Source of the DNA: Archangium primigenium
Lineage (GTDB): Bacteria; Myxococcota; Myxococcia; Myxococcales; Myxococcaceae
Length of the DNA: 64,000 nt
Reading direction: 5' to 3'
Assembly (NCBI RefSeq): GCF_016904885.1
Contig: NZ_JADWYI010000001.1
Location: 4,278,001-4,342,000 of the forward strand
The notes under the pieces were generated by a model that worked only from the letters and a program-made list of their open reading frames with translations, had not been told where the DNA came from and searched no databases. Below are positions 55,372-61,803 of this stretch, piece by piece. Both the position numbers and the translations under genes were made by a program. Numbering within the stretch: the stretch's first letter is position 1; every line of letters starts with the position of its first letter.

Positions 55372-58047
55372 ATGGTTCCCAGTCCTCCCCCCGGCGTGTC
55401 CCGCCTCGTGCTGATCGACGCCTCCAGCTTCATCTTCCGCGCCTATCACGCCATCCCCCCCCTGACGACCCGTCAGGGGGTGCCGACCAACGCCACCCTG
55501 GGCTTCACCCGCCAGGTGCTCAAGGCGCTCAAGGAGCTGGAGCCCTCCCACGTGGCGCTCGCCTTCGACAAGGAGAGCCGCGCCGAGCGCCAGAAGATCG
55601 ATCCCAACTACAAGGCCCATCGCAAGGCGATGCCCGAGGACCTGGGCCAGCAGTTCCCCTACATCCGCCAGGTGGCGGAAGGCCTGGGGCTGCCCATCCT
55701 CGAGGTGGCCGGTTGGGAGGCGGACGACGTCATCGGCACGCTCGCCCGGCGCGCCACCGCCGAGGGCTTCCACGTCCTCGTGGTCACCGGCGACAAGGAC
55801 TTCGTGCAGATCGTCGATGACCGGGTGCACCTGTACGATCCGCAGAACGAGCGCTACACCACGCCCGCCGAGGTGAAGGAGCGGCTGGGCATCGAGCCCG
55901 CGCAGATGCGCGACTACCTGGCGCTCATCGGGGACGCCGTGGACAACGTGCCCAAGGTGCCGGGCATCGGGCCCAAGAGCGCCGTGGAGCTGCTCACCCA
56001 GTTTGGCGGCGTGGACGCGCTGCTCTCCCGGCTCTCCGAGGTGAAGAAGCCCAAGATGCGCGCCGCGCTCGAGGAGCACCGCGACAGCCTGCTGCGCGCG
56101 CGCGACCTGGTGACGTTCCGCACGGATCTCACGCTGGACGTGACGCTCGAGGCCCTCCAGCGCCAGCCCCTGCACGAGGCGCCCCTGCGCCAGCTCTTCA
56201 CCGAGCTGGAGTTCACCGCGCTGCTCCGGGAGCTGCCCACCCAGGCGCCCACGCAGCTCGCCACGGAGACGCCCCTGGTCACCACCGCGGAGGCCCTCGA
56301 GGCGCTGGCCGGGCGGGTGCGCGAGGCCGGCCGGGTGACGCTGATTCCCGCGTACGAGGGGCTGCCCCTGAACGCGTCGCTCGTGGGCCTCGGGGTGTCG
56401 CTCGCCGACGGCGCGTCGCTCTATGTCCCCTTGCGCCACGAGGGCCTGGGCGTGGAGCAGGTGCGGCTGGCCGACTTCAAGCGGGCGCTCCAGGGCGTGC
56501 TGGAGGACGCGGCCGTCAAGAAGGGCGGGCATGACCTCAAGGCCCTGGCGCTCCTGCTGGCGCGCGAGGGGATGGCCCTGAGGGGCGGGGAGGATGACGT
56601 CGAGCTGCTGAGCTACCTGCTGGATGCCTCGCGGCGCGACCACTCCCTGGAGCTGCTCGCCCGGGAGCGGCTGCACGTGGAGCTGCCGCCCCCGCCCACG
56701 ACGGGGGGCCGCAAGGCGCGTCCCCTCAAGGAGTACGCCCCCGGCGAGGTGGCCGCGGCCTTCGGCGGCCGCGCGGACGTGGCGCGACAGCTCGCCCCCG
56801 GGCTCTGGGAGGAGCTCGGCCCCCTCGGGCTCGACAAGCTCGCGCACGAGCTGGAGCTGCCGCTCGTGCCGCTCTTGGCGAGCATGGAGTCGCGGGGCGT
56901 GAAGGTGGACGTGAAGACGCTGCGGCGCATCTCCGAGCAGGTGGGCGCCGACTGCGACGCCAAGGTGAAGCAGATCCACGAGCTGGCGGGCACCGAGTTC
57001 AACGTGGGCTCCAACCCGCAGCTCGCCGAGGTGCTCTACAAGAAGCTGGAATTGCCCGTGCTCAAGCGCGGCAAGACGGGCCCCTCCACGGACCAGGAGG
57101 TGCTGGAGAAGCTCGCCGAGCAGCACGCGCTGCCGCGCGCCATCATCGAGTACCGCTCGCTGTCCAAGCTCAAGAGCACCTACCTGGACACGCTGCCGGA
57201 GCTGGTGGGCCCGGACGGGCGCCTGCACACGACGTTTCACCAGGCGGCCACGGCCACGGGCCGGCTGTCCTCGTCGGACCCGAACCTGCAGAACATCCCC
57301 ATCCGCACCGAGCTGGGCCTGGAGATCCGCCGGGCCTTCATCGCCGAGGAGGGCCACCAGCTCGTCTCCGCGGACTACAGCCAGATCGAGCTGCGGCTGC
57401 TCGCGCACATCGCCGGGGACGAGGTGCTGCTGGACGCCTTCGCCCAGGACGAGGACATCCACAGCCGCACCGCGGCGGAGATCTTCGGCGTGCCGCAGGC
57501 GGAGGTGACGCGGGATCAACGCCGGGTGGCGAAGATGGTCAACTTCGGCATCGCCTACGGCCTGTCGCCCTACGGCCTGTCCACGCGGCTGAACATCCCC
57601 GAGGAGGACGCGCGCGACATCATCGAGCGCTACTTCACGCGCTACGCGGGCATCAAGCGCTACCTGGACGAGACGGTGAAGGTGGCGCGCGAGCGCGGCT
57701 ACGTGGAGACGCTCTTCGGCCGGCGCCGCCCCATGGGCGATTTGAACGCGAAGAACCGCCAGGTGGTGCAGGCCGCCGAGCGCGCCGCCATCAACATGCC
57801 CATCCAGGGCACGGCGGCGGACCTGATGAAGAAGGCCATGCTGGACGTGGAGGCGGAGCTGCGGCGCCAGGGCCTCCAGACGCGCATGCTCCTGCAGGTG
57901 CACGACGAATTGCTCTTCGAGGCGCCCGACGCCGAGGTGGAGCGGGTCAAGGAGCTGTCGCGCCGGTGCATGGGCGCGGTGATGACGCTGAAGATTCCCC
58001 TCAAGGTCGAGGTGGGCGCCGGAAAGACGTGGGCGGACGCGCACTGA
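55372..58047 (+). CDS. polA: DNA polymerase I
   Basis: 891 residues. The 5'-3' exonuclease domain (residues ~1-295) has VLIDASSFIFRAYHAIPPL, GWEADDVIGTLA, VTGDKDF and LIGDAVDNVPKVPGIGPKSA. The polymerase domain has TTFHQAATATGRLSSSDPNLQNIP, SADYSQIELRLLAH (motif A), RRVAKMVNFGIAYGLSPYGL (motif B) and LLQVHDELLFE (motif C). The middle 3'-5' exonuclease domain (~315-480) seems to have lost its metal-binding carboxylates: the positions of the DxE, D and YxxxD motifs read PAYE, LKAL and AFGGR. It therefore probably does not proofread, as in Taq and Bacillus Pol I. Role: Okazaki fragment and repair synthesis. Confidence 0.97.
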   Translation: MVPSPPPGVSRLVLIDASSFIFRAYHAIPPLTTRQGVPTNATLGFTRQVLKALKELEPSHVALAFDKESRAERQKIDPNYKAHRKAMPEDLGQQFPYIRQVAEGLGLPILEVAGWEADDVIGTLARRATAEGFHVLVVTGDKDFVQIVDDRVHLYDPQNERYTTPAEVKERLGIEPAQMRDYLALIGDAVDNVPKVPGIGPKSAVELLTQFGGVDALLSRLSEVKKPKMRAALEEHRDSLLRARDLVTFRTDLTLDVTLEALQRQPLHEAPLRQLFTELEFTALLRELPTQAPTQLATETPLVTTAEALEALAGRVREAGRVTLIPAYEGLPLNASLVGLGVSLADGASLYVPLRHEGLGVEQVRLADFKRALQGVLEDAAVKKGGHDLKALALLLAREGMALRGGEDDVELLSYLLDASRRDHSLELLARERLHVELPPPPTTGGRKARPLKEYAPGEVAAAFGGRADVARQLAPGLWEELGPLGLDKLAHELELPLVPLLASMESRGVKVDVKTLRRISEQVGADCDAKVKQIHELAGTEFNVGSNPQLAEVLYKKLELPVLKRGKTGPSTDQEVLEKLAEQHALPRAIIEYRSLSKLKSTYLDTLPELVGPDGRLHTTFHQAATATGRLSSSDPNLQNIPIRTELGLEIRRAFIAEEGHQLVSADYSQIELRLLAHIAGDEVLLDAFAQDEDIHSRTAAEIFGVPQAEVTRDQRRVAKMVNFGIAYGLSPYGLSTRLNIPEEDARDIIERYFTRYAGIKRYLDETVKVARERGYVETLFGRRRPMGDLNAKNRQVVQAAERAAINMPIQGTAADLMKKAMLDVEAELRRQGLQTRMLLQVHDELLFEAPDAEVERVKELSRRCMGAVMTLKIPLKVEVGAGKTWADAH

Positions 58048-58072
58048 ACGCACGCGCCCGCCCGGAAAAAGT

Positions 58073-58273
58073 GTCGACCCGTCCGGCCGTCAGAAGGCTC
58101 GCGGAGACCCCCATCCCCGCGGCTTTCAGCGGCCATGTCCGCGGGCGCCCCATACCCCCGTATGGGCACCCGCGCCGTTTCGCGCCTCGGGCCCAGAATG
58201 GCCCGGCAGCGCGCCCCCATCAACCGCCCCCGGATGCGTCCTGGAAGGGACGCATCACTCCGGACGGGTCGAC
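58073..58273. other. Structured convergent intergenic element with 14-bp terminal inverted repeat
   Basis: GTCGACCCGTCCGG (58073-58086) is mirrored exactly at 58260-58273. Inside are a 7-bp hairpin pair (58116-58122 with 58139-58145), a hairpin around CCCATAC/GTATGGG (58149-58166, extended by GCGGG/CCCGC at 58141-58173), CGGGCC/GGCCCG (58188-58205) and GATGCGTCC/GGACGCATC (58233-58256). It sits between convergent genes: polA stop at 58047, opposing stop at 58288. No target-site duplication is seen. It may be a mobile palindromic element or a strong bidirectional RNA structure. Confidence 0.6.
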
Positions 58274-58287
58274 CCAACCTGAAGAAG

Positions 58288-58806
58288 TCAGTGCGCGGCG
58301 GCCTGCAGCTCGCCCGTGACGGCCTGCTCGCGCACGGCCGGCGCCTTCTCGAAGCTCTGCACCACCAGGCCCGCGAAGGGCACGCGCGGCTTGGGCGCGT
58401 AGCGGTTGCTCAGGTGCTCCAGCAGGTCCGTCGAGGAGATGGCCGCCTCGTCCACCGCGTTGTTCACCACGGCCCGCTCCGAGTCGCCTCCGCCGAGCGT
58501 CTCCACCGCGTCCAGGAGGCAGCGGCGCAGGGCGGCGAACTCCTCGTTGAGGGCGCGCGTGCCGCGCTGGGGCGACAACCGGAGCACCGCCCGCGTGCGG
58601 CTCCAGGCACTGCCCTCCTTGCCCTCCAACGTGCGGCCAATCTCCCGGATGAAGGGCTCCACCAGGCTGTCCAACTGGTTGCGCGGCGGCGCGCCTTCCT
58701 TGCGGGCCTCGGCGAAGCGCGCCCGGCGCCATGCCGCCGCGAGCCGCTCGGGCTGCCCCGCGAAAACCCTCGCCACCCCTGCCCGACGCCGTGCCTGCTC
58801 CGCCAT
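58288..58806 (-). CDS. Conserved protein of unknown function
   Basis: 172 residues, soluble and mostly helical. GAGGAAGG lies just before the ATG at 58806. Segments such as QLDSLVEPFIREIGRTLEG, ALNEEFAALRRCLLDAVETLGGG and VVNNAVDEAAISSTDLLEHLSNRYAPK are well ordered. The pattern DSLVEPFIREIG...ALRRCLLDAVE...NNAVDEAAISS is loosely like the RsbRD-type N-terminal domains of stressosome and two-component proteins, but no known domain is certain. There is no output domain. It is opposite to polA across the structured element. Confidence 0.65.
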   Translation of the reverse strand: MAEQARRRAGVARVFAGQPERLAAAWRRARFAEARKEGAPPRNQLDSLVEPFIREIGRTLEGKEGSAWSRTRAVLRLSPQRGTRALNEEFAALRRCLLDAVETLGGGDSERAVVNNAVDEAAISSTDLLEHLSNRYAPKPRVPFAGLVVQSFEKAPAVREQAVTGELQAAAH

Positions 58807-58981
58807 CTCGCCTTCCTCCGCGCTTGTGCCTGGGAGTCAAGCAAGTGGCCTGCCAACGCGCGTCTTCCACCGAGTGCCGTGAATCCGCTGGGTTGGCCCG
58901 TGGCGGTGCGACTCCCACCCCCGGCAAGCTGTAGATTTTGCGCCGGGGGCGATGAACTTTGGCGGAGAGGAGCGGGAATCC

Positions 58982-60166
58982 TCAGTGCAGGGTGGGTTTG
59001 GTGGGGGTGGGTGTGCGCTCCGGGTCTTCCTCTGGCTCCGAGGTGGGAGACTCCCGCCAGTCCGTGCTTGGGGATTCGGGGGAATCGGCGGACTCCGCGT
59101 CTCCGTGGGCCTCCTGGGTGACGACGTCCGGGGGGAGGCTCAGGGTGGGGCGCTGCTGGGCGAGCTCCGCCTCGAGCTCCGCGCGCAGGGCGGCCTCCTC
59201 GGCGGCCTCGCGCGCGTCCATCTCCGCCAGGCGCCGCTCCTTGATCGTGCGCAGGCGCAGGCTGGCCGCGAGGCCCAGGGCGATGATGAGCAGCCACAAG
59301 AGCGAGGAGCTCGTCGTCAGGGGCAGCCACCCGTAGCGGGCCGAGAGCCCCTCGCGCCAGGCCTGCTCCTCCACCCACAACGAGGTGTGCAGGGCCTTGC
59401 CGAAGGCCTGCTCGAAGGGCTGACCCGTGGCCACCTCGTCCACGAGCCGGCCCATGCCCGCGGGGCCCTGGCGCGCCGCGAGCCAGCCCACGAAGGCGGC
59501 GCTCTGCGCGTAGGCGAGCTCCACGTCCGAGGGCAGATCCGGCCAGTCCTCGGCCAGGTGCTCGAAGCGGAAGACCTTCTCCTGGGCCACGGCGCTGAAG
59601 AGCGCCGCGTAGTGCGTCATGGAGAGGTTCTCGCCGGTGAGGTTCTGCGCCAGGCCCTCCTGGAACCAGCGGGGCCAGCGCGGCGCGAGCCGTCCGAGCG
59701 CCACGTGCGCCAGTTCGTGCCGCAGGGTGATCTGCCCCTCGGGGCCCGCGAGCGTCAGCGCGTCGAGCAGGACGATGCCATGGGCGGGGTAGGCGAGCGC
59801 CACGGCCCAGCCCGGGGGCTCGCCGCCGGGCAGCGCCATGCCCTCGAACTCCGCGCGCCCCACGCCCAGGCGGATCTCCGTCATGCCGGGCCAGTCGCGG
59901 CCGAGCACGTTCACGAAGGCGTCGCGCATGGACTCGATGGTGGTGGCGAGCTGGCGCGCGGCGCCCTCGGCGCGCGCGGAGTACTGGATGCGAAAGCGCG
60001 GCGTCTGCACCGAGCCCTTCACCAGGGCGGGCAGGGCGGTGGGCACCAGGGCGGGCTCGACGCCGCCATTGGCATGGCCCGCCACCTGGGGGGGCGCCAT
60101 CGCCTCCTGGGCCCCGACCGGGAAGGACCCGAAGCACAGCAGGAGCAGGAGGAGCAGATGGCGCAT
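58982..60166 (-). CDS. Membrane-anchored gluzincin metalloprotease (peptidase MA-like)
   Basis: 394 residues. The signal peptide is MRHLLLLLLLCFGSFPVGAQ. The catalytic domain (~55-300) has the zinc motif RHELAHVALG (His150, Glu151, His154) and a downstream Glu in RWFQEGLAQ, typical of the MA clan. One membrane span (SSSLLWLLIIALGLAASLRL) is followed by a cytoplasmic coiled-coil-like tail (KERRLAEMDAREAAEEAALRAELEAELAQQ) and an acidic Ser/Thr/Pro end. The active site faces the periplasm. ATG 60166 has GAGG 6 nt upstream; the start at 60220 is a shadow extension. Confidence 0.85.
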   Translation of the reverse strand: MRHLLLLLLLCFGSFPVGAQEAMAPPQVAGHANGGVEPALVPTALPALVKGSVQTPRFRIQYSARAEGAARQLATTIESMRDAFVNVLGRDWPGMTEIRLGVGRAEFEGMALPGGEPPGWAVALAYPAHGIVLLDALTLAGPEGQITLRHELAHVALGRLAPRWPRWFQEGLAQNLTGENLSMTHYAALFSAVAQEKVFRFEHLAEDWPDLPSDVELAYAQSAAFVGWLAARQGPAGMGRLVDEVATGQPFEQAFGKALHTSLWVEEQAWREGLSARYGWLPLTTSSSLLWLLIIALGLAASLRLRTIKERRLAEMDAREAAEEAALRAELEAELAQQRPTLSLPPDVVTQEAHGDAESADSPESPSTDWRESPTSEPEEDPERTPTPTKPTLH

Positions 60167-60266
60167 GGGCGGCCTCACGTGAGGCACCAGACATAGCAGC
60201 CTGGGCCCGCGCCGCGCCAAGCCTCGTGCACCCCCACCCCGCGACGCGGGGCGTCAGCGCCCCGGG

Positions 60267-60794
60267 CTACTCGGCGTTCTGCGCCTTCTTCTGGGTGAGG
60301 TACGCCACGTTGTCCTCCACGCGCGCGTAGTCCTTGTCCGCGAAGGTGCGCCCGCTGAACGTCTCCAGCAGCTTCTGGTGCGCGTCCACCACGGACTTCA
60401 CCTGCGACTCGAACTGGGTGCGCTGGCGCTTGAGCTCGTTGATGTCCTCCACCACCTGCACCAGCCGCTGGTGCGCGCCGTGGACGATCTTCTCCGCCTG
60501 ATGCTCCGCGTCCGCGAGGATGATCTCCGCCTCCTTCTTGGCGGCGACCTTCATGTCCTCGCTGATGCGCTGCGCGGTGACCATGGTCTCCTGGAGGGTG
60601 CGCTCGCGCTCCACGTGCTGCTCCAGCTTGAGCTGGGTGCGCTTGAGCTCCTCCTTGAGGCCGATGTTCTCCTTGACCACTTCCTCGAACTCGCTGGACA
60701 GCAGCTCGAGGAAGGCATCCACCTCACCCTTGGCGTAGCCCCGCAGGGCCGCCTCGAAGCGCTTCTGGCGGATGTCGAGAGGGGTGATCTTCAT
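60267..60794 (-). CDS. divIVA: DivIVA-domain protein
   Basis: 175 residues. The N-terminal membrane-binding motif MKITPLDIRQKRFEAALRGYAKGEVDAFLELL is the classic DivIVA start, with Arg and hydrophobic residues for curved membrane. A long coiled coil (EEVVKENIGLKEELKRTQLKLEQHVERERTLQETM...) follows. In other bacteria such proteins mark poles or septa and recruit partners. It lies 21 bp after proC in the same direction; this proC-divIVA pairing resembles the yggS-proC-divIVA neighbourhoods of many bacteria. Confidence 0.93.
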   Translation of the reverse strand: MKITPLDIRQKRFEAALRGYAKGEVDAFLELLSSEFEEVVKENIGLKEELKRTQLKLEQHVERERTLQETMVTAQRISEDMKVAAKKEAEIILADAEHQAEKIVHGAHQRLVQVVEDINELKRQRTQFESQVKSVVDAHQKLLETFSGRTFADKDYARVEDNVAYLTQKKAQNAE

Positions 60795-60815: not shown

Positions 60816-61643
60816 CTAGGACTTCTCCAGGAACTGCTCCCCCAACTCCCTTGCTCGCCGGGTGGCCGCCTCCACGGCGTTGATGAGCGTGGTGCGCAGC
60901 CCGCCCGCCTCCAGGGTGTGCAGCCCGGCGATCGCCGTGCCCCCGGGGCTCGTCACCTGATCCTTGAGCTGGCCGGGGTGGGCGCTCGTCTCGATGAGCA
61001 GCTGCGCGCTGCCCAGCACCGTCTGGGCGGCCAGCTTGAGCGCGGTGTAGCGCGGCAGGCCCACCTTCACGCCCGCGTCCGACAGGGCCTCGATGATGAG
61101 GAAGATGTAGGCGGGGCCGCTGCCGGACAGGCCCGTCACGGCGTCCAGCAGGTTCTCGTCCACCACGGTGGTGGTGCCCACGGACTGGAAGATGCGGCTG
61201 GCCACCGCCAGGTCCTCCTCGCTCGCGTGCTCCCCGGGCGACAGGGCACAGGCCCCCGCGCCCACGAGCGAGGGCGTGTTGGGCATGGTGCGGATGATGC
61301 GCGAGCCCCCGCCCAGCCGCCGCTCCAGGGCGGAGATGGGCACGCCCGCGGCCACCGAGACGAAGAGCTTCTCGGGCCCCGCGGCGGGCGCCACCTGCAC
61401 GAGCACCTTGTCCAGCGCCTGCGGCTTGACGGCGAGCACCACCACGTCCGCCTCGCGCACCGCGGTGAGGTTGTCCAGGGTGGTGCGCACCCCGTAGGTG
61501 CTCCGCAGCGCGTCCAGGCGCTCCGGGCGGCGGGCCGTGGCGAGGATCGACTCGGGCCGGGCGGTGCCCGCGCGCAACAGGCCCTTGATGAGCGCCTCGG
61601 CCATGTTGCCGGCGCCGAGGAAGGCGATGGTCCGTTCAAGCAT
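60816..61643 (-). CDS. proC: Pyrroline-5-carboxylate reductase
   Basis: 275 residues. The N-terminal Rossmann fold is TIAFLGAGNMAEALIKGLL. VLAVKPQALDKV and IIRTMPNTPSLVGAGACAL precede the C-terminal helical dimer domain with AVTGLSGSGPAYIFLIIEALSDAGVKVGL and QVTSPGGTAIAGLHTLE. It makes proline from pyrroline-5-carboxylate with NAD(P)H. ATG 61643 begins the Rossmann fold; the earlier start at 61682 adds 13 basic residues without support. Confidence 0.96.
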   Translation of the reverse strand: MLERTIAFLGAGNMAEALIKGLLRAGTARPESILATARRPERLDALRSTYGVRTTLDNLTAVREADVVVLAVKPQALDKVLVQVAPAAGPEKLFVSVAAGVPISALERRLGGGSRIIRTMPNTPSLVGAGACALSPGEHASEEDLAVASRIFQSVGTTTVVDENLLDAVTGLSGSGPAYIFLIIEALSDAGVKVGLPRYTALKLAAQTVLGSAQLLIETSAHPGQLKDQVTSPGGTAIAGLHTLEAGGLRTTLINAVEAATRRARELGEQFLEKS

Positions 61644-61803
61644 CCGCCGGGTTCTAGCGTGAAACCCGGAGCGCCGACACACGCCGTGGGGGCGGAGTTT
61701 TCCAGCCCCCTCGCGTGCTCATTTCTTGACAGGGGATCGGATCGTGCGACCTTGGCGCTCGCTACGACCCTGTAGCGCCTGACACGGACGAGGTGGCACA
61801 CCC

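Follow-up and report, generated by a model that had tools for sequence, protein, structure and literature searches.

A conserved structured RNA behind a small open reading frame in Myxococcaceae, with G-rich loops complementary to the small RNA Pxr

What is the palindromic element that lies beside polA in Archangium primigenium: a mobile sequence, a terminator, or a structured RNA, and what might it do? The element was analyzed within a stretch of 64,000 nucleotides (the window). An earlier note on this DNA had described a perfect 14-bp inverted repeat, and the description was borne out: the arm GTCGACCCGTCCGG at 58073-58086 is matched, after a spacing of 173 nt, by its exact complement at 58260-58273. 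The repeat lies in a 240-bp spacer (58048-58287) between the polA stop (58047) and the end, at 58288, of a 172-aa ORF on the minus strand, which the earlier note had overlooked.

The inverted repeat as the closing stem of a conserved RNA

As the earlier note had argued, the repeat was not a product of chance. An inverted repeat of at least 14 bp arose in none of 2000 dinucleotide shuffles of the spacer, in which the longest exact one was 13 bp, seen once. No exact inverted repeat of this length occurred in 532 segments of 240 bp taken at a step of 120 bp, none of which spans the 58073/58273 pair. The inner hairpins were also real: a 9-bp stem (GATGCGTCC/GGACGCATC) was found at 58233-58256, and folding yielded the hairpins P5, P6, and P7 as well. 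The 211-nt stretch had fold z-scores of -7.9 on the plus strand and -5.6 on the minus strand, and none of 200 shuffles was as stable on either strand; taken alone, this single-sequence score favors the plus strand.

In relatives, blastn gave matches in 12 of 59 genomes, including the own genome. One of the 12 (L013, in G034) was unrelated to the locus and was rejected as a copy; the true G034 copy was located at C32. Ten sequences were aligned with plain MAFFT (alignment A1), and the contig-end copy L011 was excluded. The RNAalifold consensus of A1 contained 64 pairs, of which 16 showed two-sided changes, and 96.1% of the cells paired. Its covariation score was reached by 0/500 shuffles, and slid versions fell to 33-45% pairing. 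Four of five measures stood at 0/500 shuffles, and the fifth (further pair types) was reached by 151/500. We then used a larger alignment (A3), which consisted of 27 family copies and 18 full-length copies from named records (45 sequences, 38 distinct; L056 lacks its 5' end, and some organisms enter twice). In A3, 97.3% of the pair cells held, 28 of the 64 pairs showed two-sided changes, and all five measures stood at 0/500 shuffles. Because A3 was fitted to the covariance model, its counts lean towards that model; the independent A1 count does not. Compensatory changes in the helices thus exceeded both the shuffled and the slid controls. It is virtually certain that a conserved structured RNA exists at this locus, which was one of the options of the earlier note, and the 14-bp repeat is the closing stem (P1) of this multibranch RNA of about 200 nt on the minus strand.

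The strand was judged by structure. For the alignment, the minus-strand consensus fold had an energy of -103.5 kcal/mol (z -11.2) and the plus-strand fold one of -59.3 kcal/mol (z -6.0), each judged with 60 column shuffles, and these models indicated that the minus strand is the transcribed one. A plus-strand RNA behind polA was ruled out by this strand comparison, together with genomes in which polA has moved away. The RNA occupies 58073-58273 on the minus strand and is described by the covariance models R1 and R2. The 5' arm of P1 (58260-58273) and its 3' arm (58073-58086), both on the minus strand, were each recovered from the repeat, the consensus fold, and covariation. The stem of the P2 hairpin (58233-58256, minus strand) covaried and its loop was unconserved, so this loop was taken as an internal control.

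A scan of 57000-59500 with Rfam 15 returned just a chance match to Ysr141 (E 0.27, 15.5/196 bits), which lay outside the element. Four diverse element loci (L030, L038, L050, and L052) likewise gave no Rfam match at gathering score. By these sequence comparisons, the family is a new one, outside every known RNA family tested in Rfam 15. A literature search that covered few subscription journals found nothing naming this RNA or a sponge of the small RNA Pxr.

Position behind the ORF, distribution, and descent

The 172-aa ORF (58288-58806, minus strand; here called "down") immediately precedes the RNA in 26 of 27 loci, and the 27th (L056) begins inside the RNA. Across the 15 loci measured, between 6 and 36 nt separate its stop codon from the RNA; the window has 14 nt. 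In M. xanthus, the counterpart of the RNA is found behind a 174-aa ORF beside polA, with its sequence in L073. Upstream of the ORF, the motif TGGC-N7-TTGC was found at 58841-58855 (minus strand), which has the -24/-12 spacing of sigma54 promoters and which we take to be a sigma54-type promoter motif. In 53/53 loci, the motif precedes the start codon by 48-92 nt, counted from the beginning of the protein match where no start codon had been assigned; five of these loci lack the RNA, and some represent organisms counted twice. The 64-kb window holds six occurrences on both strands, the one upstream of the ORF included. Farther upstream, a stretch like CCAA..GGCTGATTTCACTG (about 58870-58910, minus strand) recurred before the motif in many of the loci listed, and, judged from its sequence, it could be a regulator site. 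The same-strand genes beyond it are Peptidase_MA_2 (58982-60220), DivIVA (60267-60794), and pyrroline-5-carboxylate reductase (60816-61682).

The protein encoded by this ORF is specific to the family. Neither Pfam nor NCBIfam holds a family that it matches at threshold, no PDB sequence scored below E 0.46, and a Foldseek search with its AlphaFold2 model (pLDDT 84.7), which is mostly helical, gave nothing at E 0.001 or better. The best VIA-align scores of the model (Z about 8) were to phycobiliproteins and globins. Since such a Z lies within the chance range for helical folds, the weak likeness of the predicted fold to the globin/phycobilin type is a lead only.

The element had been described as lying after polA. 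This holds in the window, where polA (55372-58047, plus strand) adjoins the element as a convergent neighbor outside the unit, and it does not hold where polA is distant and the RNA stays behind the small ORF. Among the 27 RNA loci, polA was found at 22 and was close in 21. In five genomes of genus g8, it was either 1.1 kb distant or absent from the neighboring 1.5 kb. Because polA in these five genomes lies at least 1 kb away while the RNA remains directly behind the ORF, the link to polA is incidental.

The suggestion of a large bidirectional terminator stood in part. A U-tract (58066-58070, minus strand) lies directly behind P1, and the aligned relatives are also T-rich there; on the plus strand, no terminator-like site was found at the element. 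A second, terminator-like 14-bp hairpin, followed by ACGUCUUUCC, lies at 58031-58063 on the minus strand and overlaps the 3' end of polA. Such a hairpin, with 14-19 pairs (G-U allowed), follows the RNA in 31 of the 36 loci listed; L073 is cut by a contig end. Its loop holds GGGG in 20 of the 36 loci, a count that leaves out L062, where the hairpin is another one; that of the window does not. The extra G5 hairpin was also considered as a genome-wide repeat and rejected: exact matches numbered 0 to 1 per genome in six genomes, and with up to three mismatches there were 2 to 9 matches per genome versus 4 to 11 for the reversed pattern. These features are consistent with a structured 3' UTR or terminator that just protects the 3' end of the messenger and halts transcription before the convergent polA, and the closeness of polA in most loci fits this explanation too. 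For termination, however, the 170-nt multibranch interior would be superfluous, and its loops are kept in 37-38 of 38 members while the stems and the P2 loop vary. Moreover, in three relatives the same ORF faces a convergent polA or histidine kinase gene across a short spacer with no RNA. We therefore regard termination or end protection as an unlikely sole role.

A covariance model built from A1 found one copy each in 27 of 58 Myxococcaceae genomes, belonging to 8 of 26 genera. Named carriers include Archangium, Hyalangium, Corallococcus, Citreicoccus, Pyxidicoccus, and Myxococcus, with M. xanthus AM003 among them. The 24 named loci comprised 18 with the full RNA, four cut by a contig end inside it, and two (L078 and L079) without it. 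In the four cut loci (L063, L065, L066, and L077), the contigs stop as if assembly or sequencing failed at the structure. One record (L072, BNCN01000010.1), titled Comamonas sp. KCTC 72670, holds a Myxococcus-type locus and is for this reason probably mislabeled or contaminated. The second model, R2, gave nothing convincing in 31 further family genomes and four further order genomes, and on a phylum draw of 58 genomes, under stricter filters, it returned eight carriers, all previously known. Two weak R2 matches were seen. That in G014 (E 0.024) was rejected, since it reads by eye as coding sequence away from the RNA locus, presumably purL; that in G037 had an E of 0.65.

The relatives without the RNA were also compared. 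In a search of 32 family genomes, the ORF was present in the own genome and in three RNA-less ones (G011, G014, and G026). In G011, the ORF is followed after about 20 nt by polA, and in G014 and G026 a convergent histidine kinase gene comes after it. With all filters off, no divergent RNA was detected behind the ORF in L078, L079, L114, L115, and L116; the best score in these loci was 13.5 bits and lay elsewhere. The pairs L078/L115 and L079/L116 appear to be two organisms, each entered twice, and a convergent histidine kinase gene follows their ORF. G077 lacks both the ORF and the RNA, and its genus otherwise has the RNA. The distances between elements correlated with those between host proteins (Mantel r 0.88; 0/999 permutations as high; 26 genomes). 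Based on the distribution of carriers, the RNA-less relatives, and this correlation, the RNA was probably acquired a single time, by the ancestor of the core genera, and has been inherited vertically since.

This history did not bear out the proposal of a non-autonomous palindromic mobile element. A search for further genomic copies found none in the own genome or in the carriers: each of the 27 carrier genomes holds one copy, which sits at the same locus in the 26 with flanking sequence. No target-site duplication was visible by eye at the element borders, as had been stated, or in comparison with the RNA-less site of G011. A MITE/REP-like palindrome inserted beside polA would account for the terminal inverted repeat and for the RNA-less site in a related genus. 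It was rejected on the single copy and the vertical descent; the covariation and the lack of a visible target duplication also speak against it, and it can for practical purposes be set aside.

G-rich loops and the small RNA Pxr

Within the RNA, three hairpins on the minus strand carry G runs: P5 (58182-58213), P6 (58140-58174; loop GGGGG at 58155-58159), and P7 (58100-58121; loop UGGGGG with its G run at 58108-58112). Among the 38 distinct members, GGGG lay in the apical loop or within 3 nt of it in 37 at P5, in 38 at P6, and in 38 at P7 (30 of these as UGGGG), compared with eight at P2. The sole exception at P5 is the window itself, whose loop is AUUCU. The joiner between P4 and P5 (58213-58221, minus strand), with GAUGGGGGC, holds GGGG in 19/38 members. 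G makes up 50% of the letters that are unpaired in the RNA, and shuffling them yielded GGGG in 48% of cases at P5, 14% at P6, and 11% at P7. Since half of these letters are G and the P5 shuffles reach 48%, only the joint, conserved occurrence is telling: GGGG was present at P5, P6, and P7 together in 37/38 members versus 0.6% when the unpaired letters of each member were shuffled. In the window, GGGG was found in 15 of 345 hairpin loops on the plus strand and in 11 of 314 on the minus strand, the latter count including P6 and P7.

The presence of several nearly identical loops within a single RNA might indicate a scaffold with repeated G-loop sites for an RNA-binding protein, or a tertiary, G-quadruplex-like core. 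In CsrB and RsmZ, GGA loops form repeated binding sites for CsrA, and the present RNA resembles them in carrying repeated purine loops; its loops are GGGGG instead of GGA. The base before the G run was U or C in 38/38 members at P6 and in 38/38 at P7, which also suits a protein site. In contrast, a search of 15 of the 27 carrier genomes detected CsrA in none, compared with 3 of 14 control genomes, so a CsrA sponge was rejected, and no candidate protein emerged for the scaffold. A protein-binding or quadruplex-like role therefore seems unlikely on the whole.

A small RNA of the same hosts offers another possible partner. According to one report, Pxr exerts negative control over fruiting-body development in M. 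xanthus, and its function, though not its accumulation, is abolished when base five of the SL1 loop is changed from C to A or when this loop is deleted; the direct targets were described there as still under investigation (PMC5684412). The accessible portions of PMC5684412, PMC11928866, PMC5568312, and PMC10217877 name no partner for this C-rich loop. In PMC10217877, no Pxr-S was reported after 0.5 h of starvation, and it was suggested that Pxr-S may need a stabilizing partner. In the present study, a Pxr query was pieced together from oligonucleotides printed in PMC5568312. It matched 50 of 62 genomes, which comprised all 27 RNA carriers and 23 others. Because Pxr is much older and wider in range, a partnership would postdate Pxr, and the 27/27 co-occurrence proves little. 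The C7 loop of SL1 is UUCCCCCCCA in 30/30 pxr loci read. When two pxr loci were scanned with Rfam, L087 matched RF01812 with 129 bits and L104 fell below the gathering score. L104, from the own genome (G000:C1 8811591-8812977), contains five pxr-like matches in tandem, and the four copies listed all retain an intact C7 loop. No relation between the number of G-loops and the pxr copy number was seen by eye.

The complementarity between the two RNAs was compared in 26 genomes that hold both, with G006 omitted since its RNA is cut. In all 26, the RNA contains several perfect complements of 5-8 nt to the Pxr C7 loop. In each genome, at least three of them have a mean unpaired probability of at least 0.5 in the RNA's own fold; the remaining ones lie within stems. 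A U immediately preceded the G run in 84 of 113 loops, as the A after the Pxr C7 would want. In M. xanthus, the P5 loop holds GGGUGGGGG, the complement of Pxr CCCCCACCC, a stretch whose final CC belongs to the Pxr stem. The duplexes predicted with the Pxr loop, computed as bare loop duplexes without loop-loop geometry, ranged from -8.9 to -15.1 kcal/mol for the G-loops versus -1.3 and 0.1 kcal/mol for two P2 loops. The corresponding duplexes of P5, P6, and P7 with the 16S anti-SD sequence were weaker (-5.5 to -8.9 kcal/mol), and for the loop of the extra hairpin the two were about equal (anti-SD -11.8 versus Pxr -11.6 kcal/mol). Since its exposed G-rich loops are complementary to the C-rich loop on which Pxr depends, the RNA is a possible Pxr partner, and we tentatively suggest, at somewhat under even odds, that pairing with Pxr or a similar C-rich RNA is its main function.

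Several observations count against this suggestion or weaken it. G5 runs can pair with any C-rich RNA, which counts against specificity for Pxr. The inactivating Pxr mutation weakened the model duplexes by just 0.4-4 kcal/mol and that of the extra hairpin not at all, so its effect on some loops is small. The wider range of Pxr and the window's own P5 loop, which lacks GGGG, are further points against it. In addition, published target prediction points elsewhere, with pxrA proposed as a Pxr target through SL3 (PMC11928866).

Proposed mechanism and relation to known systems

We propose that a messenger with a sigma54-type promoter encodes the 172-aa protein and ends in the multibranch RNA of about 200 nt, in which the long closing stem P1 holds P2 to P7. 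P5, P6, and P7 present GGGG(G) loops, as does the following terminator-like hairpin in four of the eight genera. These loops may pair with the invariant C7 loop of Pxr, with several contacts per molecule, and the 3' UTR, whole or processed, could then titrate or stabilize Pxr, or let Pxr act on the messenger of the ORF. Transcription, a separate RNA species, Pxr binding, and an effect on development are all hypothetical steps of this scheme. As a whole, an RNA borne in a 3' UTR and acting through pairing with Pxr is the best explanation that we can offer, at a probability of roughly 0.4. It fits the way the loops are conserved, the range of hosts, the lack of any CsrA match in the 15 carriers searched, and the reported lack of hfq in M. 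xanthus (PMC5684412). A more specific version appears rather unlikely, namely a starvation-switched, sigma54-driven 3'-UTR sponge in which three to six G-rich loops and joiners would kiss the Pxr C7 loop and help to release the block on development, as a layer of the core Myxococcaceae that postdates Pxr.

The same loop complementarity might instead mean that the messenger itself is the Pxr target, with Pxr pairing with the 3' UTR loops and controlling the stability of the mRNA without titration. The attachment of the RNA to one ORF in 26/26 loci with flanking sequence, and the absence of both from G077, would agree with such control. Several redundant sites resemble titration more, and three relatives keep the ORF without the RNA; we consider regulation of the messenger alone quite improbable.

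The proposed RNA resembles 3'-UTR-derived regulatory RNAs and sponges in its position behind a stop codon; its release from the mRNA would be part of the proposal. The GcvB sponge attributed to Miyakoshi et al. 2015 is said to be an example of this class. A closer likeness, by description, is to RosA of Bacillus subtilis (RsaI in Staphylococcus aureus), which PMC8216469 presents as a G-rich sponge of the C-rich sRNAs RoxS and FsrA, about 200 nt long; several of its G-rich regions are accessible and complement the C-rich region of the sRNAs. Judged from sequence and predicted pairing, the RNA described here likewise has, in 26/26 genomes compared, unpaired G-rich sites that complement the functional C-rich site of an sRNA present in the same genome. 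Unlike in RosA, the G runs here occupy the apical loops of a closed multibranch fold, and the RNA belongs to a 3' UTR downstream of a sigma54-type promoter motif, with the sponge role a proposal. If the reading through Pxr holds, the RNA would, by analogy, work like RosA.

With Pxr itself (RF01812), the RNA shares the family of hosts (Myxococcaceae), a complementary loop sequence, and a sigma54-type motif, a sigma54 promoter having been reported for Pxr in PMC5568312. TGGC-N7-TTGC preceded pxr in 20/30 loci, and it was not found before the pxr copies of the window's genome. The two RNAs differ in locus, in structure, and in range, which is narrower here. Membership in RF01812 was rejected, since L030, L050, L052, and L038 remained unmatched while the pxr locus L087 scored well.

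Collectively, these results add a covariation-supported RNA family that is absent from the Rfam scans made here, and they offer a concrete and cheap way to test which molecule contacts the C-rich loop that Pxr requires. If the proposed pairing is true, an RNA-RNA antagonism would be part of what governs the entry of myxobacteria into multicellular development, and this in bacteria that are reported to lack Hfq (PMC5684412).
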